Assembly: GCA_020630015.1 (NCBI GenBank)
Contig: JAHDCF010000022.1
Coordinates: forward strand, 1 to 44,506
Direction of reading: 5' to 3'
Source: Planktomarina sp.
GTDB lineage: Bacteria; Pseudomonadota; Alphaproteobacteria; Rhodobacterales; Rhodobacteraceae
Length of the DNA: 44,506 nucleotides
Position 1 is the first letter of the stretch. Every line of letters begins with the position of its first letter. Positions 470 to 33,170 of the stretch are shown piece by piece. The position numbers and the translations under genes were made by a program. The notes beneath the pieces were generated by a model. That model had not been told where the DNA came from and did no database searches. It worked only from the letters and a program-made list of their open reading frames with translations.

Positions 470-1039
470 ATGTCTAATCTTTCACCAAAGCAAGAACGTT
501 TTGTCGAGGAATATCTGGTCGACTTAAACGCCACACAGGCTGCGAAGCGAGCAGGATACAGCGAAAAAACCGTCAACAAGATGGGTGCCAAACTTCTGGC
601 CAACACCAAGGTCTCAGCCGCCATCGCCGTTGCGCGAAACAAGATTTCAGAGCGCACAGAAATCACCCAAGACATGGTAGTGCAGGAATTGGCAAAGATT
701 GGTTTTGCCAACATGGCCGATTACATGCGGGTTGGTGAAGATGGTGATCCGTTCTTAGATTTTTCAGAACTTACACGCGACCAAGCTGCCGCGCTGATTG
801 AAGTCACAGTCGAGGATTTCAAAGAAGGTCGGGGCGAAAATGCTCGCGATGTTCGTCGCGTCAAGTTCAAGCTGGCCGACAAGAAGGGTGCCTTGGTTGA
901 TCTAGGGAAACACCTCGGCATGTTCGTTGAACGCAAAGAGGTTTCGGGCCCGAACGGCGGCGCAATCCCCGTGGAAACAACCGGCACCGTGCCTTTTGTC
1001 CTTGCTGGACACAGTGAAGTGGATGGCGAAGAAAGTTAG
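470..1039 (+). CDS. Terminase small subunit (Terminase_2 type)
   Basis: 189 residues. The N-terminus has the classic Terminase_2 opening: LSPKQERFVEEYL, then an Asn-Ala-Thr-Gln-Ala-Ala-x-Arg-Ala-Gly-Tyr-Ser block, a helix-turn-helix that binds the phage packaging site. The middle (about residues 75-150) would form the oligomerisation domain. It recognises concatemeric phage DNA and hands it to the large subunit, whose start overlaps its 3' end. No obvious Shine-Dalgarno precedes the ATG; the 21-bp gap to the divergent gene must hold whatever start signals exist. First gene of the late operon as I read it. Confidence 0.92.
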   Translation: MSNLSPKQERFVEEYLVDLNATQAAKRAGYSEKTVNKMGAKLLANTKVSAAIAVARNKISERTEITQDMVVQELAKIGFANMADYMRVGEDGDPFLDFSELTRDQAAALIEVTVEDFKEGRGENARDVRRVKFKLADKKGALVDLGKHLGMFVERKEVSGPNGGAIPVETTGTVPFVLAGHSEVDGEES

Positions 1040-2348
1040 AATTCCTGACATTCTGGCTAATGTGCTGGATTTCAGGAAACACCCTTACGGTTCGGTTCGA
1101 TATCGCGGGGCATACGGCGGCAGGGGATCTGGGAAAACCCGGACGTTTGCCACGGCGGTTGCAATATTTGCGGCGGGTCTGGCTGCCAACGGTGTCAGTG
1201 GTTCAATCATCTGCGCGCGCGAGTTTCAGAATTCAATTCAGGATTCGTCCTTTCTGGAATTGAAACAGGCGATACAAGCCGAGCCCGAACTGGCCGCGCA
1301 CTTCGATATCGGTGATCGGTTCATTCGAACCGCTGATCGCCGTATCAACTTCATTTTCATCGGCCTGCGTCACAACCTGGAAAGCATCAAGTCAAAGGCA
1401 AAGGTGCTTTTGGTTTGGGTGGATGAGGCCGAGCCTGTAAGCGAAAAGGCTTGGGAATATCTGATACCGACGGTCCGCGAAGATGGGTCTGAGATTTGGA
1501 TCACTTGGAACCCGCTGGACCCTGAAAGCGCCACCAACGAGCGGTTCAGAAAGAACCCGCCGGCCGACAGCTTGATCGTCGAATGTAATTACACCGACAA
1601 CCCGTGGTTTCCATCGGTTCTGGAAGCGGAACGCCGAAGCCACTTCGAACGTTTTCCCCGGACATATCACCATGTATGGGAGGGCGGATATCGCGAATTC
1701 AGCGACGACGCCCTGTTCCGCGAGGAATGGTTGGGGGAATACATCCACACGCCGGTGACGCTTTCCAGCGGTTATTTACGGATCGATACGGCCCAAAAGG
1801 GCGAAAAAACCAGCGACTTTCACGGCCTTGTGGCCATGGGTTACGATAAGCGCGACCCGCTGCACATGTACGTTCTGGATGCGCAGCGCAAACAGTGCGA
1901 GTTTCCTGACCTTGCCGATTGGGTGGTTGAATACGCGCAACACCTCAAAGAATTCGAAAGCCAGACGTTTAGTTTCAGCCGCATCACGATCGAGGACGCC
2001 AACGTCGGTGCCGCCTTGCAATCGATGTTGCGCACAAAACTGCGCGAGGCTGGGATCAAAGTAAACGTCCAGCTAACGCCGAGATATGGAAGCAAGTTTG
2101 ACCGTGCCTTGGAGGCGGTGAACTGGTTTGAACAGGGCCGCGTTTTGTTCCCCAAGGGTGTGACGGGCTGGCAAAAAGACAAAGGCGAAGGTCTCAAGGC
2201 GCTGCGCAAAGAATATCTGTCCTTCACCGAGACAGACACACACGCATCGGACGACCTTTTGGACCCACTGATTTGGGAAGTAGTTAGCCGTTTCGGAAAT
2301 GGCGACCCCAACGGGTCTGGACGATACTGGCGGGGGTCACTGGGATGA
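1023..2348 (+). CDS. Terminase large subunit (PBSX/Terminase_3 type)
   Basis: 441 residues from the ATG at 1023, which overlaps the small subunit by 17 bp; an upstream start at 927 would overlap it heavily and gives no recognisable sequence. ATPase domain: Walker A GGRGSGKT near residue 35, Walker B with VLLVWVDEAE near residue 130, then an ITWNPLDP coupling motif. The C-terminal half carries the nuclease domain, with Asp residues in YLRIDTA and TIEDANVGA. It drives ATP-dependent packaging of DNA into the prohead and cuts concatemers. The next gene starts inside its stop codon (ATGA). Confidence 0.93.
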   Translation: MAKKVRIPDILANVLDFRKHPYGSVRYRGAYGGRGSGKTRTFATAVAIFAAGLAANGVSGSIICAREFQNSIQDSSFLELKQAIQAEPELAAHFDIGDRFIRTADRRINFIFIGLRHNLESIKSKAKVLLVWVDEAEPVSEKAWEYLIPTVREDGSEIWITWNPLDPESATNERFRKNPPADSLIVECNYTDNPWFPSVLEAERRSHFERFPRTYHHVWEGGYREFSDDALFREEWLGEYIHTPVTLSSGYLRIDTAQKGEKTSDFHGLVAMGYDKRDPLHMYVLDAQRKQCEFPDLADWVVEYAQHLKEFESQTFSFSRITIEDANVGAALQSMLRTKLREAGIKVNVQLTPRYGSKFDRALEAVNWFEQGRVLFPKGVTGWQKDKGEGLKALRKEYLSFTETDTHASDDLLDPLIWEVVSRFGNGDPNGSGRYWRGSLG

Positions 2349-2686
2349 TTTTGTTTTCTGACCCTTCGATCAGCGGCGCTGCTTTGGTCGGTTCTCAGCT
2401 GCAATTCACGCGGGGCGGGGTTCTGGAATCCCACAACCTTGTGGAAATCAACCCACGACAGGGTGGCACCGCATCGGGCGCAAGTCTGAACTGCAACGCA
2501 GTTTCTGTGATCTTCACAATATCTGGGACTGATTACAACGCCGTGATGTGCCTCAAGACGTTCCAAGACATGAAATACTTGGCGGCATACCAGCCGGGCC
2601 AATCCGGGGCCCTGCAACGCATCGCCAGAAAAACCAGAGACATTGTGCACGCCGTGACCAACTGTCAGGGCTGCGGAGGAAAATAA
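2345..2686 (+). CDS. Hypothetical phage protein
   Basis: 113 residues; the start overlaps the terminase stop (ATGA), so it is translationally coupled to it. It is predicted to be mixed alpha/beta, with Cys-Gln-Gly-Cys-Gly-Gly at the C-terminus that could bind metal or form a disulfide. I do not recognise the family. It opens the accessory block between terminase and portal. A small virion-associated or decoration protein is possible but unsupported. Confidence 0.7.
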   Translation: MILFSDPSISGAALVGSQLQFTRGGVLESHNLVEINPRQGGTASGASLNCNAVSVIFTISGTDYNAVMCLKTFQDMKYLAAYQPGQSGALQRIARKTRDIVHAVTNCQGCGGK

Positions 2687-3124
2687 ATGCCAGATCCACG
2701 TTTTGATCCTGACGATCCATTGGCCACGTTCTGCGATGGCGTTTATGCCCAGAACAACGGTCAGGCTAACGCTTATCAGCGCTGCCCAAGCGTGGCGACG
2801 TTTCAAAAAGAGGAAACGCCCCCGCCACCTGTTGAGCCCAAGGAACCAATCAAGACATTCACGCAGGTTTTGAAGGGTCCCGGCACGTTTACAGACGCCG
2901 ATTTCTGCCCGGACACAATCATCGCTTTGTCTTTTCAATCTATCCAAGGCGACACTGCGACGGTTCAGGCTTCAAAAGGCGCTGCTGCACCTCTTCCTTG
3001 CCGGGCGTCCCTCGGCTTTGGTCACGTGGTCGATCCGGTCACTGACACCCTTTGCCCACAGTCGGGCTTCACACTCACGCTTGGTGCCGACGACTGTGCG
3101 GTCGTGTCTGGTCAGGCCATCTAG
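2687..3124 (+). CDS. Hypothetical protein with proline-rich linker
   Basis: 145 residues, preceded by GGAGG and starting directly after the previous stop. Residues 1-45 are polar; a Pro-rich linker (TPPPPVEPKEP) follows; the C-terminal part is beta-rich with five cysteines. This suggests a short tail joined by a linker to a compact, disulfide-stabilised beta domain, an arrangement common in decoration or surface-displayed proteins. No family recognised. It lies between coupled small genes, so it probably acts with them. Confidence 0.7.
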   Translation: MPDPRFDPDDPLATFCDGVYAQNNGQANAYQRCPSVATFQKEETPPPPVEPKEPIKTFTQVLKGPGTFTDADFCPDTIIALSFQSIQGDTATVQASKGAAAPLPCRASLGFGHVVDPVTDTLCPQSGFTLTLGADDCAVVSGQAI

Positions 3125-3136
3125 GAGACACGCAAA

Positions 3137-3565
3137 ATGAGCGTTTTCACATCTGGCGGCGCAAAGCCGGTCGGTCCTGATTTTAACAAATTGCTGGAAG
3201 GCGGCGCTGGCGCTGTTGCTGGTGGTACGCCAGCGAACTTGGCGCCACCTGCACCTATCGATGGATTTTCCATACGTCACTGCGGTGATGACAAGGACAT
3301 CGCTTTGGTGGTCACTGTGACCGTCGATACGGCGGCAGGTTACGTTTTGGCAGGCGACGCCACGCAGGTTGTTCCTGCAGGCGGTTCGGTTTCGATCACC
3401 TTGGACGATATGCCAGCAGATTCCGACGCAATTACTGGAATTTCCATCGCTGCAGTTTCCTTGTCGGCAATCACGCCATCTGCGACAGTGACGCTTGGTT
3501 CTGCCCTGCCTGCGGCGGGTGCAACCGACGTTGTTCCTTACATCATCAACACAATCGAAAGTTAA
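3137..3565 (+). CDS. Hypothetical beta-rich protein
   Basis: 142 residues, with an AGGAG ribosome-binding site 7 bases before the ATG. The N-terminus is Gly/Ala/Pro-rich. From about residue 45 there are alternating Val/Thr/Ala strands and loops typical of an Ig-like or jelly-roll domain, plus one Cys. This is compatible with a capsid decoration or fibre-associated protein, but no family is recognised. A stem-loop follows it (3579-3600). Confidence 0.7.
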   Translation: MSVFTSGGAKPVGPDFNKLLEGGAGAVAGGTPANLAPPAPIDGFSIRHCGDDKDIALVVTVTVDTAAGYVLAGDATQVVPAGGSVSITLDDMPADSDAITGISIAAVSLSAITPSATVTLGSALPAAGATDVVPYIINTIES

Positions 3566-3578
3566 TCCGCTTTGATTG

Positions 3579-3600
3579 TGGGGCCGGTCCGCTGGCCCCA
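3579..3600 (+). terminator. GC-rich stem-loop, possible weak terminator or attenuator
   Basis: GGGGCC (3580-3585) pairs with GGCCCC (3594-3599) around an 8-base loop, extended by a T-A pair, and is followed by TTTCT only. The T run is weak, so it may attenuate rather than stop transcription into the beta-helix gene. Confidence 0.45.
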
Positions 3601-3629
3601 TTTCTAAGCTGATTTTGGGGGTTTCCAAA

Positions 3630-5621
3630 ATGCCAACACGTTTCACAAATCTATTCGTTGCTCTGGTTGCCGTATTCTTGGCGACAGCGCTGCCAGCCAC
3701 TGCCAATACCACCTTTGGCGGTGGTTCATCTGGTGGTTCTATCCCAGACAATCTGACGGTTTCTGGTGATCCTGCTGTCTTCCCAGCAACACCGGAGGAT
3801 AACGACACCCATATTGTCACAGATGATGGGACACCCACAGGCGAAGTTTTAGAGCTTTGGAAGTGGGACGAAGATGCACTTCCTGCTGGCGCTTGGGTTG
3901 GGCCTTTGTTCAACTCTGTACCTTGCGAAGATCCAATGGCGCGCACCGCTTTGTTGGCGCTGCGCAACGGTTCAAGCCTGCAAACTGAATGCCATTATGT
4001 GATCACCGATTACAATCGTGGCACCGTTGGCGCGTCTGAAATCCTTCTGCATGCGATCAATGCAAACACTCTTTCCATGGATGCACATGTCGCCACCGGC
4101 TTTGACGCAGTCGCTTGGGATGGTCGTTACGATATCGACACCAACCGGATAACCGAACTGGACGATAACCTTGGCAACGAGGTTTCAGGGCAGGAACTTG
4201 TCGACACATTCCCATGGGGCAACACATCGTTGCAGGACAACGTGATCGATGAAGGCGCGTCATTCACATACACCGGCGGAACCTTCATTGATAACCGGAT
4301 CGAGACCGCCGCAAATGTGCGCGTCACAGGCGGCAACGTCCAGCGAAACAGCTTCCGAGCCAACTCGAACACAACGGTTTCAGCAGGCGACTTCCTTGAA
4401 AACGAAGTTCAAACTGACGCCACGGTCACAACCAGCACGACCGGCGATGTTGACAACAACGTTTTCGGGCAAAATTCCACAGTCACAATCACCGGCGGCA
4501 ACGTTGATGGCACCACAGTGGGCAGCGTTTCACGCCTGACCGTTTCCGGTGGCACAACCCGCGATAACACAATCGAAAGCCGCAGCGACTTACGTGTCAA
4601 CGGCGGTTCGGTTTATGAAAATCACATTGAAAGCAATTCACTTGTGAACTTGGTGGGCGGTTCCAGCTTTTACCGCAACACGGTTTCGAATGAATCCAGC
4701 CTGACCATTGGGAACCACTTCGCGATTGAAAGCGAGTTTTCACGGGCATCTGTCAACACAACTGGATCCGGCGGCCAAGGCTTCCGTTATTCACGATTGC
4801 AGCGAGCAACGGTCAACGCGACCAACGTTCCAACCTTCCAACTGGTCAGCAGTGATCTAAGCGCAAATTCACAAATCAGTGCGAACAGCGCCACGCGTAT
4901 GGTTGCAAATTATCTAGTTATGAATGGCTATGGCCGTGTTCTGGTTTCGCCATCACGCCAGCTGGACATTCAATACACCGGAATCCGCGACTATGCCTAT
5001 GTTCAGGTCGCCAACGGTCGGATGTATGTCAATTACAGCACCTTGTCCGGTGTAAGCTACATTCAGAACAACAGCACCGGCACAAACCGCGTTGACAGCG
5101 TAACCGTTCTTTCTAGGTCAAATGTCCGCTTCCTTGGCACGTCGACAGGCAACCGTGTCTATTATTCCGAGGTCACATCGGGCAGCACGATTTACACAAC
5201 TGGAAGCGCCAGGAACTGTTATTTCTACTATAACGAGGTTACGTCGTCCTCGCAGATGTACGCGAACAATTCGGTCAACTGCCGGATTTATTACAACACC
5301 GCATCTGGGAATTCCCAGCTATATTCCCAGAACGTCACTGGCACCCATTACATGTATTACAATGCGATGGCCGGTCATGGTTATATTCGCTTTGAAAACG
5401 CACCCGGTGGCCGGATTTATGCAGTCCATGTCGGGGGGCAGGGGCTTTTGAGGTTCCGTCCTGCGAACGGCAACGGGCGCATCTATTACAGTTCTTTTGA
5501 CGCGTATTATTACCTTTATGCGGACGCATGGACGCTAACGCGTTCCGGGCTGCACGGTCATGGGCGACGCACTTACACCGTCACCAACCCGCCCAACGGC
5601 ACATTCGAACAAAACTTCTGA
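3630..5621 (+). CDS. Exported right-handed beta-helix repeat protein
   Basis: 663 residues from the ATG at 3630 (preceded by GGGGG); an upstream TTG at 3576 lies inside the stem-loop and is rejected. Residues 1-25 form a good Sec signal peptide ending in PATA-N. From about residue 190 to the end the protein is a run of roughly 20-residue rungs rich in Asn, Thr, Ser, Gly and Val, with recurring GG-turns and N-x-I/V patterns; the last third becomes very rich in Tyr (YYN, YYS). This is the signature of a beta-solenoid such as adhesins, pectate-lyase folds or tailspikes. No catalytic motif is visible. It sits in the late operon, so it is either a virion fibre or a secreted surface protein. The signal peptide favours the second, but the S74 fibre at 26095 also has one. 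Confidence 0.8.
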   Translation: MPTRFTNLFVALVAVFLATALPATANTTFGGGSSGGSIPDNLTVSGDPAVFPATPEDNDTHIVTDDGTPTGEVLELWKWDEDALPAGAWVGPLFNSVPCEDPMARTALLALRNGSSLQTECHYVITDYNRGTVGASEILLHAINANTLSMDAHVATGFDAVAWDGRYDIDTNRITELDDNLGNEVSGQELVDTFPWGNTSLQDNVIDEGASFTYTGGTFIDNRIETAANVRVTGGNVQRNSFRANSNTTVSAGDFLENEVQTDATVTTSTTGDVDNNVFGQNSTVTITGGNVDGTTVGSVSRLTVSGGTTRDNTIESRSDLRVNGGSVYENHIESNSLVNLVGGSSFYRNTVSNESSLTIGNHFAIESEFSRASVNTTGSGGQGFRYSRLQRATVNATNVPTFQLVSSDLSANSQISANSATRMVANYLVMNGYGRVLVSPSRQLDIQYTGIRDYAYVQVANGRMYVNYSTLSGVSYIQNNSTGTNRVDSVTVLSRSNVRFLGTSTGNRVYYSEVTSGSTIYTTGSARNCYFYYNEVTSSSQMYANNSVNCRIYYNTASGNSQLYSQNVTGTHYMYYNAMAGHGYIRFENAPGGRIYAVHVGGQGLLRFRPANGNGRIYYSSFDAYYYLYADAWTLTRSGLHGHGRRTYTVTNPPNGTFEQNF

Positions 5622-5628
5622 GGCTGAC

Positions 5629-5946
5629 ATGAAACGTATTTTTATCACATCCACAATTCTGGCCGCCTTGGGTGGCTTCGCATTGGCGCAAGCAAAGCCT
5701 GCGACCTTCGGGCAAATCATCGGCAAGATCAACGCCATGGTTGAAAAGAGCGAAGGCATCGACCCAATAGCCAAGGCTGACCTGATCATCGAGTTGGAAG
5801 AGGCATTCATCGTTCGCGTTGATCAGCTTGAAGAGCGCAAGAACAAGGCAATCGATGCGTTGAACGGGCTGGAAGAAACGCCGCCTGAGGGGCAGGAAAA
5901 TCCCCGCGATGCTTTTGTCGATAAGCTGATGGGTGAGGCCAAGTGA
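5629..5946 (+). CDS. Small exported helical protein
   Basis: 105 residues from the ATG at 5629 (GAGG 6 bases upstream, overlapping the previous stop); a longer frame from 5560 would overlap the beta-helix gene. Residues 1-20 are a signal peptide ending ALAQA. The mature part is charged and mostly helical, with Glu/Lys-rich segments. It lies between the exported beta-helix protein and the PAP2-like enzyme, and its stop overlaps the start of that gene (TGATG), suggesting a coupled set. Function unknown. Confidence 0.72.
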   Translation: MKRIFITSTILAALGGFALAQAKPATFGQIIGKINAMVEKSEGIDPIAKADLIIELEEAFIVRVDQLEERKNKAIDALNGLEETPPEGQENPRDAFVDKLMGEAK

Positions 5947-6860
5947 TGCGATACGCCAAAACAACAGGCGTCGACATGGTGGACAGCCATTTCACCGACG
6001 CAGACCCCCGTGTTCTTATCAAGTCACACGAAATCCCGCTGCCCCTGTACCCTGGCGACGACGGGTTTTGGGCCCAGTTCGAATACGTGCTGGACCGGGT
6101 TTCTTTGGCCAAGCGCATGTCCGCCGTGACTGGCGTTGCCAACTGCATCGAAGCCCAAGGCGTCCGCACCTTTGACCAAGCGGCCAAGCTGGTACACAAG
6201 GACTGGCCCGGAGACATCATGCTTTTCGCGGCGAAGGCTGCGGTAGATGATCCCGAAACGATTTGGCGCGAATTTGACGGTATCCAGGGCCCATTCACGG
6301 ATTGGGTGGTTCTGCTTAACCGATTGGTAAACACAGCGCCGCATTGGGTTTCCCCGTCCAGCTTTGCCAACAAGGCGCACTTCCTTATGCCGCGCCCCGA
6401 AGAGGTTGCCGGTGCTATCGCTCGCGGTGAAATTGACTGCCCGTCTTTGATCAAAAGCAAGTTGATGGACACGTTCGGCGGCACGCTTGATGGTATCGCC
6501 GCAGATCAACGCACGTTCACGATGTACCCAGAGGGATCACCCGGCCACGGTTCATATTGGGGCATGCACCCAGCCGCCGCCGGGGCAGCTTTGGCGATCA
6601 TTCTTCTGATGTTGAAAACATCGCAGACGGTAAAATCAGATTGCGAACTCTGTGCGTTCAACGTGGCTGACTTCCGGGCTTATGCTGGTGTTCACTATCC
6701 CATGGACAACCTGACCGGTTTGGCCGGTGGCCACGAGGCTGTCGCTCGCAAGTTGCCAGAATATGCGCAAAGCGAAATCGGCATGGATGCAGATCAGGTG
6801 CGTGAATATTTGGCCGAAACCAAAGTCTATTGGGGCGTCGAATTTGGGGAAGCTGCCTGA
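5946..6860 (+). CDS. PAP2-superfamily / vanadium-dependent haloperoxidase-like enzyme
   Basis: 304 residues from the ATG at 5946 (GAGG upstream; overlaps the previous stop). All three active-site motifs of the PAP2/vanadium haloperoxidase superfamily are visible: K143-x6-R150-P151; EGSPGHGSYWGMH, with H208 at the position of the catalytic His of the EGSPTHPSYPSGH motif; and R244-x5-H250-x3-D254 (FRAYAGVHYPMD). In the family these residues bind phosphate or vanadate. The members either dephosphorylate lipid or other phosphoesters or oxidise halides with peroxide. Oddity: the usual Pro-Ser-Gly before the central His is Trp-Gly-Met. No signal peptide and only one hydrophobic stretch (about 210-225), so it is probably soluble, unlike membrane PAP2 phosphatases. 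Its location in the late operon next to a holin-like gene is unusual. Superfamily call is firm; substrate unknown. Confidence 0.8.
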   Translation: MRYAKTTGVDMVDSHFTDADPRVLIKSHEIPLPLYPGDDGFWAQFEYVLDRVSLAKRMSAVTGVANCIEAQGVRTFDQAAKLVHKDWPGDIMLFAAKAAVDDPETIWREFDGIQGPFTDWVVLLNRLVNTAPHWVSPSSFANKAHFLMPRPEEVAGAIARGEIDCPSLIKSKLMDTFGGTLDGIAADQRTFTMYPEGSPGHGSYWGMHPAAAGAALAIILLMLKTSQTVKSDCELCAFNVADFRAYAGVHYPMDNLTGLAGGHEAVARKLPEYAQSEIGMDADQVREYLAETKVYWGVEFGEAA

Positions 6861-7066
6861 TGGATCACGACCGCATAACTTCTTTGGTGAATCCGTCCAT
6901 GTGGGGCGGTGCGATTTTAGGTGGTGTTGGTGGTATGACTGCAACTGATTGGCTGGCCATTGGTGGTTTCGTTTTGGCCTTTGCTGGCTTTTGTGTGAAT
7001 TGGTGGCACAAACGCCAAATGGTGCAGATTGCAAAAGCACGCCTTGAATTGGATCGCAGGGGTTAA
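6860..7066 (+). CDS. Holin-like small membrane protein
   Basis: 68 residues from the ATG at 6860, which overlaps the previous stop (TGATG). Two hydrophobic segments: a short Gly-rich one (about 14-27) and a strong one (31-49) ending in VNWWHKRQ, then a basic, charged tail. The W-x-x-x-GG...F-x-VNW-x-x-K pattern resembles small phage holins of the HP1/lambda-like groups, which permeabilise the inner membrane. It lies far from the endolysin (28648), where a second two-span protein is found, so which is the real holin is open. Confidence 0.6.
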   Translation: MDHDRITSLVNPSMWGGAILGGVGGMTATDWLAIGGFVLAFAGFCVNWWHKRQMVQIAKARLELDRRG

Positions 7067-8422
7067 ATGCTCTTACAAGCGCTGCGCAACACTGCGCAGA
7101 CAATTTCTGGGCTGATAAATCAGCAGTCTGGAATGGGTGGGGCAGGCGATCACAGCGGGGCGCAAGTTTCGTTTGGCCGTGACTTAAACCCACTTGAGAT
7201 TGCCCAATGGATGGACCGCGAGCGCATTCTGCGCAACGCGATCGAAGCAAAACCCGACGCCATCGCACGGGTCTGGCGTTCATACGGAGAGGACCGCGAC
7301 GATTGGATCGAGGCGGACGAAAAGTTTGACATCAAGGGGAACTGTGAAACTGCACTGAATTACGCCGCTGCATTCGGTGGTGCGTTTATCATGCCGCGCT
7401 TTGACGTATCTGCGGTTGATGATGAACAAATCAGTGAAGAATTCAGACAGCCACGTGCAGGATCGCTTCTGGGGTGGAAAATATTCTGTCCACAGGATCT
7501 TCGAACACCAACCACGATGCGGGGCAAGACTGAAACGCAGCCTGGCACTGACCTTCCTATGCTTTACGAGGTCAAGAATATGGTTGGGGGAAAAAACCTA
7601 AAAATCCATCATTCTTGGACTATTCCTGTTTTTGGTGCGACTTGTTATTCGCGCCGCACAGGTCAGGTGGCGCATGATCTAACTGGTGCTCTTGGCGTTT
7701 CAGAGGTCCAGATGATCAGCGACCATCTGACACGGGCGCTGTCTGGCCTTCAACAGCTGTCCCACATGCTTGCGAAAGCCAATATCGACACGCTTCAAAG
7801 CGCCGGCGTTTCCGCTGCAAAGGAATCTTGCGAGCCGGGCAGCCCTGAAATGCAGCAAATGATCACCCACATGCTGCAAGATGCAGCTGCGGCGGTTCAG
7901 GGCGCATCTGTTTATCAACCAGTTATTTTGGACCTCGAAGAGAAACTTGATCGCTTGGGGCTTTCCTCTGGTGCCACGGCTTCGGTCGGAATGGTTGAAA
8001 CTCTAATCGGGGCCTTTGTGGCCGCCACTGGCGTCCCACGCACTTTGATCCTTGGCGAACAAGGCAAGGGCCTGAACAACGGCGGGGAAGCTGATCTGCG
8101 GAACTTTTACGACAGTGTAAGCGCACTGCGCGAAAGCCGTTTGACGCCGGTTCTAAACCGCATCGATGAAATCGTCGCCGCTGACCAAGGCCTTTCCCAA
8201 GTCGAATGGGAATATAAGCCACTGTTCGAACCGTCCGAAAAAGAGCGTGCCGAAATCGAAGCAAAGAACGCCGAGCGCGACGCGAAATATTTGAGCGCTG
8301 ATATTCCATACATCACCAGCCGCGTCGCCGAACGCCTGCAACGCGAAAAGGTTTACGCCTTCACAGACGAGCAGGTCAAAGACATCGCAGAAACAGAGGA
8401 ACTGACGGGCCGCGATGGCTAA
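7067..8422 (+). CDS. Portal protein (DUF1073 family)
   Basis: 451 residues, AGGGG before the ATG. The family signature is clearest near residues 320-355: GVPRTLILGEQGKGLNNGG followed by a Glu-Ala-Asp-Leu-Arg-Asn-Phe-Tyr-Asp block, typical of DUF1073 portals. The protein forms the dodecameric ring at the capsid vertex through which DNA enters and to which the tail attaches. Length matches the family. It precedes the F-like head protein, the standard order. It overlaps the next gene by 8 bp. Confidence 0.88.
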   Translation: MLLQALRNTAQTISGLINQQSGMGGAGDHSGAQVSFGRDLNPLEIAQWMDRERILRNAIEAKPDAIARVWRSYGEDRDDWIEADEKFDIKGNCETALNYAAAFGGAFIMPRFDVSAVDDEQISEEFRQPRAGSLLGWKIFCPQDLRTPTTMRGKTETQPGTDLPMLYEVKNMVGGKNLKIHHSWTIPVFGATCYSRRTGQVAHDLTGALGVSEVQMISDHLTRALSGLQQLSHMLAKANIDTLQSAGVSAAKESCEPGSPEMQQMITHMLQDAAAAVQGASVYQPVILDLEEKLDRLGLSSGATASVGMVETLIGAFVAATGVPRTLILGEQGKGLNNGGEADLRNFYDSVSALRESRLTPVLNRIDEIVAADQGLSQVEWEYKPLFEPSEKERAEIEAKNAERDAKYLSADIPYITSRVAERLQREKVYAFTDEQVKDIAETEELTGRDG

Positions 8423-26094: not shown

Positions 26095-27834
26095 ATGAAA
26101 AAGATCATCGCACTCTTATCTTTTCTTTTTGCGACACCTGCCTTTGCAGATGTGGCGGATGAATTCGACCATGTGCAAACTGCAAATGAAGGCACTGAAC
26201 AACACACGTCTGTTCAAAAATTTGCAGACGTAATTCAGCTTCTAATGTCGCAGCCTGGCATGTCGTTTATCGATGATGGGACCAACCCGCCAGCGCTTTC
26301 GTTTGACGCGGATGGAGACGGCACGCCAGAGGACGTTTTACCATTCACAATCAACGCAAGCGGGGATCTTCTACTGGATGGCGTTGTAATCTATCCAAAT
26401 CCTGACACTGACACCGTATACGACGACACCGCTGTTCTTGCTGCGATTGCAGCCAACTTGGCGGCGATCAACGGGCATATTGCGTCTGATTTGGATATCG
26501 ACCCAACGAACGAAATTCAAGTTGCAGACGGAACAACAATCACTGGTGTCGGTTCTTCGGCTGACCCGTTTGTTGCCGTGGGTGATGGCACTGGAACTGA
26601 CGACCAACAATTAACCCGCACTGGTGATACGCTGAACCTTGAAGATGGCGGCAGCGTTGACCTTTCGGACCTGCGCAGCCCCGCCAACTTGGACAACGAC
26701 AGCACGAACGAACTTGGAATAATAGACACAACGGCTGGAACATATGATCCAGATGGCCCAGGACCAGAACCATCACAGCCCTTACCATCTGCCGACGATG
26801 CAACCAAACTAGGCGCTCTAAACGTCACTTCCAACCAGACTACAGGGCAGGTCCGATACAACGGAACTTTTGACGACGGCACGACATTTGACGTTTCGCG
26901 AACTGAATTGTCGCCAATCCGAAGCTGGACGAATGACAGTTACCTTGTTTCTGGCAATAAGCCCTTCGCCTATTATGAGAATGGCTTCATCATCGACGCT
27001 GACAAAGACGCACTTCCCTTGGGTGCCGTGGGCGATGCGGTTATATTGCAGCCAAACGGTGCGATCACATCTAAAGCGGAAACCAATCAGCGGGCTTTCG
27101 GCGTCGAACTGGCGGGGGTCGTGACCTATTCTCTGTCAAGCATGGGCGGTTTCAACTCGCAGATTAACGGCGTCACTGGAAACTTGGTTGCCCGAAATTC
27201 TGAAATCGGCGTGTCTATGCGGTCTGATGGATTGATCGAAGTCTCGCAGGACATGACGTCAAACACGGGTCCAGTTTTCGCGGTTAACCGGATGGGCAGC
27301 ACGGGTACTGCTGTTAATTTTTATCAAACACCCGTTGGTGTGACATCCGCACCGGCTGGCTCGATTACCGTGACACCGACGACTGTAAGTTATAACACAA
27401 CGTCCGACCTTGATGAAAAGACGGGGGTTGAAGAAATTGACCCGGCAGACGCAGAGGCTCGCTTGCGTCAAGCTGCACCTATTCAGTATCGCTTCAAACG
27501 TGGTGACGGTTCTGTGCACTATGGCTTTGGGGCCCAAGACGTCGCCTTGGCCTATCCGCTGGCTGTGACCGGAACGCAGCGCACGCCCGAACAGGCTGAA
27601 GTTTTTGATCAACGCACGGATGAACCGTTTGACGTTGCGGCTTTCCGTGATGCGTTTATCGCAGACAATCCAGAAGCGACAGGCGAAGAAGTTCAGGCCG
27701 CTGTTGATGCTGAGATTGCCAAGGAGGGCGAGGGCCTTTCACTGGCGCTTGGCTTTGCTGATGCGGACCAGACAGCCTTGATCCTTCATTTGCTGGATCG
27801 TGTTGCCGCTTTGGAAGCCCAGATTTCAGAATAA
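26095..27834 (+). CDS. Tail fibre with C-terminal S74-type intramolecular chaperone
   Basis: 579 residues from the ATG at 26095 (AAGGGG upstream). The last 140 residues match peptidase S74: TTSDLDEKTGVEEI (Ser near 437, with the Asp and Lys of the S-D-x-x-x-K motif), then AAPIQYRFK and HYGFGAQDV. This domain trimerises fibres and then cuts itself off. The preceding region is beta-rich with Asp/Asn/Gly repeats (VADGTTITGVGS, QLTRTGDTLNLEDGG). Oddity: residues 1-18 form a typical signal peptide ending PAFA-D, unexpected for a virion fibre assembled in the cytoplasm. Confidence 0.82.
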   Translation: MKKIIALLSFLFATPAFADVADEFDHVQTANEGTEQHTSVQKFADVIQLLMSQPGMSFIDDGTNPPALSFDADGDGTPEDVLPFTINASGDLLLDGVVIYPNPDTDTVYDDTAVLAAIAANLAAINGHIASDLDIDPTNEIQVADGTTITGVGSSADPFVAVGDGTGTDDQQLTRTGDTLNLEDGGSVDLSDLRSPANLDNDSTNELGIIDTTAGTYDPDGPGPEPSQPLPSADDATKLGALNVTSNQTTGQVRYNGTFDDGTTFDVSRTELSPIRSWTNDSYLVSGNKPFAYYENGFIIDADKDALPLGAVGDAVILQPNGAITSKAETNQRAFGVELAGVVTYSLSSMGGFNSQINGVTGNLVARNSEIGVSMRSDGLIEVSQDMTSNTGPVFAVNRMGSTGTAVNFYQTPVGVTSAPAGSITVTPTTVSYNTTSDLDEKTGVEEIDPADAEARLRQAAPIQYRFKRGDGSVHYGFGAQDVALAYPLAVTGTQRTPEQAEVFDQRTDEPFDVAAFRDAFIADNPEATGEEVQAAVDAEIAKEGEGLSLALGFADADQTALILHLLDRVAALEAQISE

Positions 27835-28523: not shown

Positions 28524-28648
28524 GACACTCAACAATCGTGCTTTTGATCATTGCTGCCCTTGGGGTTGCGGCTTGTAATTACAAGTTATCCGGCAAGGTT
28601 AGTTATGGCGACATCACGTTTGAACCAGTGTTTGAGGGTAAGCTGTAA
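28520..28648 (+). CDS. Tiny lipoprotein in lysis cassette
   Basis: 42 residues, start coupled to the previous gene (ATGA) and stop overlapping the endolysin ATG (TAATG). Residues 1-19 form a lipoprotein signal ending LGVAAC; the mature part is only about 24 residues and is beta/charged. Its position matches that of Rz1-like outer-membrane spanins, but it lacks the proline-rich sequence and no inner-membrane partner gene is visible, so I call it only a small lipoprotein. Confidence 0.62.
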   Translation: MRHSTIVLLIIAALGVAACNYKLSGKVSYGDITFEPVFEGKL

Positions 28649-29214
28649 TGTGCTTTCTGCCACTGTTTAAGCCACAGCCCCGACATCCGCTTGTTGATGG
28701 TCCGGTTCCATCAATTCAGGAACCAACGATTTCAACGCCTGTTTTCAAGTCGGATTTCAAATTCTCAGGCAAGTCAAAGACCAAGCTGGCAACGGTTCAA
28801 AAGGATCTTCAAGACGTTGCAAATCGCGCAATCGAATTAACGGTCCAAGACTTCGGTATCACCGAGGGCATCCGAACAGTCGAACGTCAAAGGTTTCTAG
28901 TCCAGCAAGGCCGATCCCAGACAATGAACAGCCGCCACATTACGGGTCATGCAATCGATGTGCTGGCCTACAACGGGTCAAAGCATAGCTGGGAACTTCC
29001 ATACTATCTTCTGGTCGCTAACGCCTTTGTGTGGGCCGCATATGAAGTGGGTGTTCCAATCCGCTGGGGTGGGTCATGGTCAACGCTAGATATCCGCGCT
29101 TGTAGGGTAAAGGATGATCCCGGTGAAACGATGATGGAATTGTATCGCAGGACAAGGCAGAGGCAAGGCCGCAAGACGTTTATTGACGCCGTTCACTTCG
29201 AAATCCCGCGTTGA
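28648..29214 (+). CDS. Endolysin, M15 (VanY/L-Ala-D-Glu-type) peptidase
   Basis: 188 residues. SRHITGHAID (95-104) contains the zinc-binding His97 and Asp104 of the SxHxxGxAxD motif, and AVHFEIP supplies the second His (183). These match M15 endolysins such as that of T5, which cleave peptidoglycan cross-bridge peptides. The first 40 residues are Pro-rich and unusual. No signal peptide, so release depends on a holin. Last gene of the late operon; a strong terminator follows at 29323. Confidence 0.9.
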   Translation: MCFLPLFKPQPRHPLVDGPVPSIQEPTISTPVFKSDFKFSGKSKTKLATVQKDLQDVANRAIELTVQDFGITEGIRTVERQRFLVQQGRSQTMNSRHITGHAIDVLAYNGSKHSWELPYYLLVANAFVWAAYEVGVPIRWGGSWSTLDIRACRVKDDPGETMMELYRRTRQRQGRKTFIDAVHFEIPR

Positions 29215-30178: not shown

Positions 30179-30913
30179 ATGTTGAAAATGCGGTCACTAT
30201 CTAACTTTACTGGCGAATTATGGGGCTATGCGCGTGTGTCCACGGAGGATCAAAACTTAGATATGCAGATTGATGCTCTGACAAACGCAGGTGTTCCCCG
30301 TCGCCATATCTTTTCTGACAAGATGTCTGGTCGCCTAATGGATCGTCCAAACTTAAACCGGGTCATTCGCAACATGCGCTCTGGTGATTGCCTTGTGGTT
30401 ATGAAGCTGGATCGCTTGGGGCGAAGTGCCATCGGTCTTGCTCAAACGGTCAAGGATTTGGAAGCGAAGGGGATGCACTTTCGCGCTCTGGATTATGACA
30501 TTGATACCACGACCTCGATGGGCAAGCTGGTGTTTAATATCATGGCGGCGATTGCTGAACTGGAAAGCGCGATGATTTCAGAACGCACCAAAAGCGGCAT
30601 GAGCGCAGCCAAGGCAAGGGGCAAAGAGTTTGGGAAGAAACACTACATTCTCAGCTATCCCAAGCGCCTGAAACGCTTTCTGGAGTTGTGGGCCGAGGGT
30701 AGGATACCCCAGAAGAACGAAACGCATTTTGAACACCACCTGACGCCCAAAGAGATTGTGGAGGAAATGCACAAGGCAGACCGGAAGGCCCCTAAATACG
30801 GCAGTCCACAGGGCTATGCCAACTGGAAGCAAACAGGCTTCAAGGGGCTGGATGTGGAAGCCGCTAACGCACTGAAACGGAGGATTTGGATTGATGGGTG
30901 TGACCAAGTTTAG
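30179..30913 (+). CDS. Serine recombinase (resolvase/invertase family)
   Basis: 244 residues. N-terminal catalytic domain: WGYARVSTEDQ with nucleophile Ser21, then VMKLDRLGRSA (the conserved Arg pair), and the long E-helix ending ISERTKSGMSAAKARGK. The C-terminal part (about 150-244) is longer than the usual 40-residue helix-turn-helix and contains a Tyr/Trp-rich segment (GSPQGYANWKQTG). It cuts and rejoins DNA at two-base-staggered crossover sites. It stands far from the integrase (33172) and I found no clear invertible segment nearby, so its target is unknown. Confidence 0.88.
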   Translation: MLKMRSLSNFTGELWGYARVSTEDQNLDMQIDALTNAGVPRRHIFSDKMSGRLMDRPNLNRVIRNMRSGDCLVVMKLDRLGRSAIGLAQTVKDLEAKGMHFRALDYDIDTTTSMGKLVFNIMAAIAELESAMISERTKSGMSAAKARGKEFGKKHYILSYPKRLKRFLELWAEGRIPQKNETHFEHHLTPKEIVEEMHKADRKAPKYGSPQGYANWKQTGFKGLDVEAANALKRRIWIDGCDQV

Positions 30914-32175: not shown

Positions 32176-32416
32176 ATGGCAACATATTTCTTCGTTTCCG
32201 AAGCCTGAAGAATCCGGTTTTGGCGATCCGTTTCTTGTTGAGTTTGGAAAACGTTCTGGCGAAAAGGTGGTTGCAGTCTGCCGTGCGGTTCGCAGTCTTT
32301 TCGAATACGGCACATGGATTGAAAGCATCCAGAAGGGTGTGACTTTTGACGGTTCACGAGATGACAATGTTTTGGAACCACTTCACTGGCGACCTATGCC
32401 AGCGGGTGCAATGTGA
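32168..32416 (+). CDS. DUF551-like small protein
   Basis: 82 residues from a GTG at 32168, with GGGAGG 7 bases upstream; the frame continues to 32132 but without a better start. It begins with SEWQHISSFPKP and ends EPLHWRPMPAG, the W-x-x-I...P opening and HW-x-P-x-P ending of DUF551 proteins, common small phage proteins of unknown function. Confidence 0.6.
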   Translation: MSEWQHISSFPKPEESGFGDPFLVEFGKRSGEKVVAVCRAVRSLFEYGTWIESIQKGVTFDGSRDDNVLEPLHWRPMPAGAM

Positions 32417-32417
32417 G

Positions 32418-32601
32418 GGAGGCTGGGTATGGATGATTTGGCCATTAAGGCTTCGCGCCTTGCGCACAACCTAGAAAGGCTTCTTGCAATGCGAGATTGC
32501 GCATCCCGGCTATTCGCTGGCGATATACTCGGATCGGAAAGGTTTAAGAGAGGCGAATGCCTGCTCATTCCAGACTTTTCAAACGTCTACAATAAGGAGG
32601 C
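32418..32601 (+). repeat. 184-bp perfect direct repeat, copy A
   Basis: Identical base for base to 32987-33170, 569 bp to the right. It spans the ribosome-binding site and nearly the whole small gene at 32429 plus the GGAGG of the next gene. Confidence 0.97.
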
Positions 32602-32795: not shown

Positions 32796-32980
32796 TGAAT
32801 TGGGATATGGTGGAACTTGGTATGCAGGCCGCACGGTCTGTGCCCGACGTTGGAAAGCAAGCAACATCGCAAGAGGCTGCTGAATGTGGTGGTCCTGATT
32901 TTTTGGCAACCTTATCATCAAAGCAATTTGATTATCACGCTGGGTACGATCATGCGATCCTGCTGGCGCGTGGTGTATAA
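32795..32980 (+). CDS. Small hypothetical protein
   Basis: 61 residues from the ATG at 32795, overlapping the previous stop; CGGAGG upstream. No motif recognised; acidic, with AAECGGPDFLATL. Between the repeat copies, so it would be lost if they recombined. Confidence 0.52.
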   Translation: MNWDMVELGMQAARSVPDVGKQATSQEAAECGGPDFLATLSSKQFDYHAGYDHAILLARGV

Positions 32981-32986
32981 TGTAAA

Positions 32987-33170
32987 GGAGGCTGGGTATG
33001 GATGATTTGGCCATTAAGGCTTCGCGCCTTGCGCACAACCTAGAAAGGCTTCTTGCAATGCGAGATTGCGCATCCCGGCTATTCGCTGGCGATATACTCG
33101 GATCGGAAAGGTTTAAGAGAGGCGAATGCCTGCTCATTCCAGACTTTTCAAACGTCTACAATAAGGAGGC
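32987..33170 (+). repeat. 184-bp perfect direct repeat, copy B
   Basis: Identical to 32418-32601. Its right end is one base before the stop codon of the leftward integrase (33172), so the duplication edge abuts the integrase gene. Confidence 0.97.

Follow-up and report, generated by a model that had tools for sequence, protein, structure and literature searches.

Organization of the locus

The DNA analyzed here, which we refer to as the window, is a whole contig (C23) of 44,506 bases from a 2.88 Mb bacterial genome. Its genes, among them those for a tail sheath, a tape measure, RecT, an integrase, an invertase and an endolysin, read as those of a temperate tailed phage, and a search for terminal repeats of at least 12 bases in the window found none. 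Between the genes for the large terminase subunit (TerL) and the portal protein lies a cassette (Table 1) that encodes the subject of this study, a short protein resembling the vanadium bromoperoxidases (VBPOs). Its gene is joined to both neighbors by TGATG overlaps of stop and start codons, and its GC content (0.567) is, by a small margin, the highest of 13 window genes compared. The setting described in an earlier, sequence-only reading of this DNA, with the small and large terminase subunits upstream and a holin-like gene and the portal gene downstream, was borne out.

Table 1. Features of the window relevant to the short VBPO-like gene
Feature	Coordinates	Strand	Basis or remark
Terminase large subunit (TerL)	1020..2348	+	Pfam/PHROG family match
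Cassette between terminase and portal, 4.7 kb	2345..7066	+	
663-aa repeat protein, signal-peptide-like start	3630..5621	+	Probably surface- or fibre-like; no meaningful family match
105-aa protein, signal-peptide-like start	5629..5946	+	Start judged by eye and hydropathy; stop overlaps start of VBPO-like gene
Short VBPO-like protein, 304 aa	5946..6860	+	Open ORF
Holin-like small protein, 68 aa	6860..7066	+	phrog_20, 1.6e-11; start overlaps stop of VBPO-like gene
Portal protein	7067..8422	+	Phage_portal_3, 3.4e-40
Tail fibre with S74 chaperone domain	26095..27834		Signal-peptide-like start (by eye and hydropathy)
Endolysin	28648..29214	+	Peptidase_M15_4; phrog_465, 1.8e-51; ~22 kb from VBPO-like gene
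DNA-invertase-type recombinase	30179..30913		phrog_125, 7.6e-56; tail fibre and endolysin genes lie upstream
192-nt direct repeat, two copies	32410..32601; 32979..33170		99% identity; starts 569 nt apart; beside integrase

With respect to the neighbors, the repeat protein is composed of Asn, Ser and Thr to 30.2%, and Tyr makes up 12.5% of its last 200 residues. The best Pfam holin match of the holin-like protein (26.8 bits) falls just below the cut-off of 28.8. Signal-peptide-like starts occur on both the repeat protein and the S74 tail fibre, which seems unusual for virion fibres.

Using TerL as bait, we retrieved three contigs with a related TerL (L004–L006), and the VBPO-like gene is absent from the stretches compared. 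In two of them (L004 and L006), TerL is directly followed by an ORF of portal size, and L005 has other ORFs at this place. The cassette of the window may thus have been inserted. The portal used as bait gave no match.

Motifs of the window protein and tests against chance

The window protein contains K143-x6-R150-P151, E196-G-S-P-G-H201-G-S-Y204-W-G206-M207-H208 and R244-x5-H250-x3-D254. These are the three active-site motifs claimed earlier, and every residue is present as described, including the Gly-Met that replaces Ser-Gly ahead of H208. Further motifs are VHxD (83-86), RPEE (150-153) and EGSPxH (196-201). A combined motif, composed after the window protein had been seen, was found in none of 100,000 residue shuffles of this protein and, among the 220 stop-to-stop window frames of at least 80 aa, in this frame only. 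A profile of 13 VBPO domains, from which the window protein was left out, scored it at 47.3 bits; of 2,000 shuffled versions, hmmsearch reported 1,174, none above 7.4 bits, and the next-best window frame reached 3.5 bits. The motif and profile match is not due to chance. A phmmer comparison with PDB sequences ranked vanadium bromoperoxidases first (E 0.00076). In PHROG, a single family was listed for the protein, at E 0.15.

Short relatives on viral contigs

Three further short members were found in IMG/VR contigs, namely L007 (313 aa), L045 (279 aa) and L068 (344 aa). L007 was obtained with a degenerate DNA pattern for the E-G-x-P-x-H region. A wider version of this pattern returned 19 stretches, 18 of which encode VBPO-type proteins (16 of full-length class, L031 and L035 being cut by the end of the stretch examined, and the two short proteins L007 and L045); the remaining one (L029) was a chance match. 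L068 came from a pattern for AGVHYxxDN, whose 18 stretches comprised six chance matches, ten members of a separate PAP2 family (some near copies), L007 and L068.

The three proteins are 26–35% identical to the window protein, with L068 at 35% (alignment A5). We ran phmmer at E 1e-3 on 173 open frames of at least 65 aa, chosen as the longest without overlap, from the window and seven loci, two of which, L009 and L047, are from the same contigs as L007 and L045, respectively. All six pairs of short proteins matched: window–L068 at 2.2e-38, L009–L047 at 4e-23, L009–L068 at 2.2e-22, window–L009 at 9.1e-19, L047–L068 at 3.7e-13 and window–L047 at 6.8e-11. Every short protein also matched the full-length VBPO of L033 (3.7e-5 to 1.1e-11). 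The sole other match among the four contigs was between fibre-like proteins of L009 and L047 (3.8e-21), and the VBPO-like gene is the only gene common to the window and its three relatives in the stretches compared, which for the relatives cover 16.9 of 21.4 kb, 16.4 of 43.5 kb and 12.0 of 132.0 kb of their contigs; because this coverage is partial, further common genes may lie beyond it, and the choice of longest non-overlapping frames may have lost small genes.

Searches with the window protein as bait found no match in 50,697 phage records, 72,556 plasmids (searched with this protein only), viral contigs or genome contigs, and other searches with it alone gave only weak bacterial PAP2-like matches. 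It was its own genome's sole match at E up to 1. A profile of the window protein and L007 (A1) matched 29 of 295 genomes of the host family at E 1e-4, the window's own included; the frames were mostly PAP2-like and of 350–460 aa, with a few of 590–674 aa, two of which (L024 and L026) are full-length bacterial VBPOs. A second scan of genome contigs gave no match. At the order level, profile A2 added six genomes at E 1e-8, with frames of 364–436 aa plus one of 5,874, and at E 1e-10 it returned only the window's own gene at the class (1 of 385) and phylum (1 of 398) levels. No other short member was found in the bacterial genomes sampled. In phage records, tblastn of L007, L045 and the full-length L033 found no match; that of L068 gave E 0.2 for a single mycobacteriophage, present in two records, which we regard as chance.

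The vanadium haloperoxidases (VHPOs) on record come from algae, fungi, cyanobacteria and other bacteria. Among the matches listed in an open-access literature search, the titles and abstract openings describe no phage haloperoxidase, and priority is unproven. In a viral survey, PAP2 is named once, among host-recognition and binding functions (PMC9469726).

Placement on the VBPO side

The earlier assignment to the PAP2/vanadium-haloperoxidase family was right, and profiles and a tree narrow it to the VBPO side. Pfam PAP2 (PF01569) gave the window protein 18.1 bits, under the gathering cut-off of 27.2; this cut-off was also missed by L007 (25.3), L068 (23.6) and the full-length VBPOs L032 (24.2) and L033 (24.8), and was passed by L045 (41.6 bits). 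Against PDB sequences, profile A1 matched the VBPO 1qi9 at E 1.9e-8, and 10 of its 11 matches at E up to 1 were vanadium haloperoxidases, the other being the lipid phosphatase 5jki (E 0.22). The window protein, L007, L068 and A1 find their best PDB matches by sequence in the VBPOs 1qi9, 1qhb, 1up8 and 5lpc, and the alignments show an EGSPxHPSY-like motif and R-x5-H in common. These VBPOs are 556–666 aa long, whereas the window protein has ~300 aa and a Gly-Met-His vanadate loop and is phage-borne, near portal genes.

For direct comparison, we assembled 13 VBPO domains (11 viral plus the bacterial L024 and L026), leaving out L031 and L035 (cut), L033 (82% identical to L038), and L039 and L044 (100% and 97% identical to L030). 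The PAP2-like set comprises 17 of 24 bacterial loci, L024 and L026 having been moved to the VBPO set and L002, L003, L027, L028 and L050 dropped as no clear motif was picked; the repeat fetches L012, L051 and L052, as well as L054, stood outside the 24 loci tried. By hhalign, the four short proteins aligned with the VBPO set over 204 columns (Prob 99.7, E 1e-25) and with the PAP2-like set over 77 columns (Prob 98.0, E 2.2e-13), which shows homology of the short proteins to VBPOs over ~200 residues. Among bacterial proteins of the host family, the PAP2/haloperoxidase-like ones (L008, L010, L049 and others) resemble the window protein in K-x6-RP, a PxHxxYPSGH-like loop and R-x5-H but lack EGSP, VHxD and RPE.

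In HMM scores, all four short proteins were higher with the VBPO than with the PAP2-like profile: 60.3 versus 40.5 bits for L007, 56.1 versus 22.2 for L068, 47.3 versus 34.5 for the window protein and 43.8 versus 41.3 for L045, in which the difference is only 2.5 bits. Left-out VBPOs scored 168–412 bits with their own profile and 27–58 with the PAP2-like one, and left-out PAP2-like rows scored 196–329 and, with the VBPO profile, 20–45; one of the latter, L049, reached 45.4 bits with the VBPO profile, near the window protein and above L045. The short proteins are thus a distant branch, at 44–60 bits against 168–412 for left-out VBPOs. Taken alone, the score gap leaves L045 unsettled and settles the window protein only narrowly; it is the longer hhalign alignment and the tree that carry the placement.

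Specifically, in a tree of 36 rows and 187 columns (14 of the 17 PAP2-like rows, without L017, L019 and L025, and five of the ten members of the separate viral PAP2 family), VBPO and short sequences were joined at 100/99 and VBPOs alone at 98/91. The short proteins alone were grouped weakly (84/45), the window protein with L068 at 95/88 and L007 with L045 at 99/95; the program warns of long branches. Of the distinguishing motifs, RPE was part of no search pattern used to find sequences, and it is present in all four short and 12 of 13 VBPO rows and absent from the 14 PAP2-like and five phage-PAP2 rows. VHxD occurs in three of four short rows (VQMD in the fourth), in 12 of 13 VBPO rows (AHVD in the thirteenth) and in none of the 19 others, counts that are qualified by the trimming of VBPO rows at this motif and by the use of the EGxPxH pattern to find most of them. 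The E-G-x-P-x-H column itself is circular for L007, L045 and the 11 viral VBPO rows, which were found by it; L068, L024 and L026 were reached by other routes. The PxH histidine, at first taken for a bromoperoxidase marker, was ruled out as such, being present in all 14 PAP2-like rows. Taken together, these comparisons give good support for grouping the window protein with the algal/cyanobacterial-type VBPOs, as a distant relative.

Full-length VBPOs are also found on viral contigs (L033, L040, L042 and others). They carry the same motifs as the short members but have open frames of ~510–590 aa and form a clade separate from the short proteins (98/91). Phage-gene families were checked on three of these contigs. 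On L033, a contig that we take to be T4-like from its gene order, the gene for the 525-aa VBPO (3271-4848) has that for a major head protein (phrog_138, 1.5e-99) one gene away and that for a head maturation protease (phrog_207, 7.2e-60) close by. The VBPO of L040 is 1.2 kb from an amidase endolysin, and in L042 a terminase gene lies 7 kb away on the contig.

The vanadate pocket

K143, R150, R244, H208 and H250 are invariant in 14 aligned sequences; among the 36 rows of the tree alignment, the Lys is missing from one, the VBPO L026. The pocket of the Curvularia enzyme consists of Lys353, Arg360, Ser402, Gly403, Arg490, the axial His496 and His404 (PMC9144378), whose counterparts by alignment order are K143, R150, G206, M207, R244, H250 and H208. 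Of the published motif PxYxSGHA (PMC9144378), the window sequence GSYWGMHP keeps the Tyr and His and lacks the Pro, Ser, Gly and Ala. This motif is itself strict, as most VBPO rows carry AGH (11 of 13; SGH in one), and the loop of L007 and L045 reads P-S/A-YPAGHG. Loss of the Ser is not disqualifying, since Ala stands at that place in 12 of 13 VBPO rows. Met at the Gly place is confined to the window protein and L068 (2 of 36 rows) and may mean that the pocket is changed and activity altered or lost. Of a second motif, LxxxxAxxRxxxGxHxxxD (PMC9144378), A241, R244, G248, H250 and D254 are present, with C236 at the first Leu and L235 adjoining. F140 lies three residues ahead of K143, at a position reported to tune halide choice; in the C. 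pilulifera enzyme, chlorination was raised by Phe or Trp there (PMC11871015).

Gene settings of the short relatives

In L007, the gene order is a tail-fibre-like ORF (phrog_3484, 6.6e-4), a 185-aa ORF, a 116-aa ORF that has no family and a single hydrophobic peak (1.61), the VBPO-like gene and a head-tail connector (Pfam 5e-35), the last apparently split into two overlapping ORFs in different frames (3253-4485 and 4242-4748). In L045, the end of a collagen-type tail fibre gene (phrog_6320, 3.3e-63) overlaps the VBPO-like start; a 77-aa hydrophobic, coiled-coil-like ORF (holin phrog_1296, 7.4e-4) follows, and a holin (phrog_443, 6.9e-10), an amidase, a terminase and a portal-like protein lie farther on. 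L068 has a 449-aa ORF without Pfam or PHROG match, a Rho_N-domain ORF, the VBPO-like gene, an M43-peptidase ORF and an endolysin-like ORF (phrog_21433, 4.3e-16; no Pfam match). The M43 metallopeptidase ORF (3103-4011; 8.1e-7) has a lipoprotein-like start by eye and overlaps the end of the VBPO-like gene. Elsewhere in L068, three of four scanned frames lack a PHROG family, and its viral nature is taken mainly from the IMG/VR label.

All four contigs thus have a fibre- or surface-like gene at a distance of one to three genes upstream of the VBPO-like gene. In L007 and L045 it is called from family matches, and in the window and L068 it is inferred. A small hydrophobic protein adjoins the VBPO-like gene in three of the four.

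Proposed role and alternatives

K, R, PxH, H, R and H are conserved in all four short members, and the pocket residues K, R, H, R and H are held in divergent proteins, in a viral setting, on contigs that are otherwise little alike. With somewhat better than even confidence, we read the window protein as a phage-specific minimal branch of the VBPO clade, a vanadate enzyme that would work with the fibre/surface cassette. Seaweed vanadium enzymes turn bromide and peroxide into bleach-like oxidants. In the window protein, K143, R150, R244 and H250, the last as axial ligand, would hold vanadate, H208 would serve as acid-base, and H2O2 would be used to oxidize bromide or iodide to hypohalite. The ~300 residues would match the catalytic part at the C-terminus of a VBPO, and on that ground the enzyme probably acts as a dimer; in the A. 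nodosum dimer, the core receives one helical bundle from each monomer (PMC9144378), and a chain of 300 aa could thus be complete in dimeric form.

No signal peptide was seen by eye in the window protein. Made late from the fibre/surface cassette without one, the enzyme would most likely travel in the virion to its target or meet it at lysis. The step after that is the least certain: our best guess, offered tentatively and considered less than probable, is that the enzyme would oxidize material at the surface of the particle or cell once the phage has been assembled or released. Oxidative cross-linking was considered because of the Tyr-rich end of the 663-aa neighbor; this feature is not general, Tyr accounting for 2.5%, 3.5% and 6.5% of the last 200 residues in the fibre-like proteins of L045, L007's contig and L068, respectively. 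Virion carriage and halide chemistry are compatible with the neighborhood in the four contigs. The wider proposal, that tailed phages carry VHPOs both in full length and in a phage-specific minimal form accompanying fibre/surface cassettes, and use hypohalite generated at the particle or cell surface to oxidize or cross-link fibre proteins or host surface material, is likewise speculative, and we think it doubtful as it stands.

The strongest alternative, though rather unlikely in our estimation, is a PAP2-type phosphatase that would act through a phospho-histidine mechanism on lipid-linked or surface phosphates, at lysis or entry. The two enzyme types belong to one superfamily with common pocket residues (PMC9144378), a holin-like gene adjoins, and L045 scores nearly as high with the bacterial PAP2-like profile; the tree and profiles nonetheless favor the VBPO side. 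Other viral contigs bear the distinct PAP2 family seen in ten of the 18 AGVHYxxDN stretches (L055, L057, L059–L061, L064–L066, L070 and L071; frames of 193–257 aa, mostly 228). These proteins have K-x6-RP, PSGH and RxxAGVHYxxDN; unlike the short members, they have RPY, lack EGSP and lie on a far branch of the tree. In terms of membrane association, the window protein and L068 each have one hydropathy peak above 1.6 (1.70 at 205-223, covering the active-site stretch, and 1.75, respectively), and L007 and L045 have none, so that the several transmembrane helices of membrane PAP2 lipid phosphatases are seen by hydropathy in none of the four. The window protein's peak equals that of its holin-like neighbor (1.70) but is near that of the VBPO domain of L042 (1.65), and we therefore read the protein as soluble, with some doubt.

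The lysis or phospholipid role suggested in the sequence-only reading is weakened by the VBPO-side signatures, by the presence of at most one hydrophobic peak and by the endolysin, which with another small hydrophobic protein occupies 27.9–29.2 kb of the window. This separate pair disfavors lysis as the main role of the VBPO-like protein, and the endolysin is the likelier lysis enzyme.

We consider it unlikely that the protein has a haloperoxidase fold, has lost catalysis and is a virion component with a structural or decorating function. The change from Ser-Gly to Gly-Met in the vanadate loop and the position between terminase and portal genes would suit such a part, but the conservation of K, R, PxH, H, R and H in all four members despite 26–35% identity to the window protein argues against it. 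A peroxide-consuming enzyme that shields the infected cell or particle from H2O2, with hypohalite as a by-product, is very improbable: VHPO chemistry does use up H2O2 (PMC9144378) and a protein with no signal peptide seen by eye would first be made in the cytoplasm, but the gene sits with late genes and hypohalite within the cell would be harmful.

If the preferred reading of a minimal phage VBPO is true, minimal and full-length viral forms would bring halide chemistry into phage biology, and some viruses may use halogen chemistry. It would also raise the question of whether viruses move VHPO genes between organisms. For an enzyme class whose soluble expression is said to be poor (PMC13059055), it would provide a natural scaffold of 300 aa. 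Papers on quorum quenching (PMC8407465) concern abilities of other VHPOs and are no evidence on the window protein.

Apart from the cassette, the invertase-type recombinase of the window (Table 1) could possibly mediate fibre phase variation.
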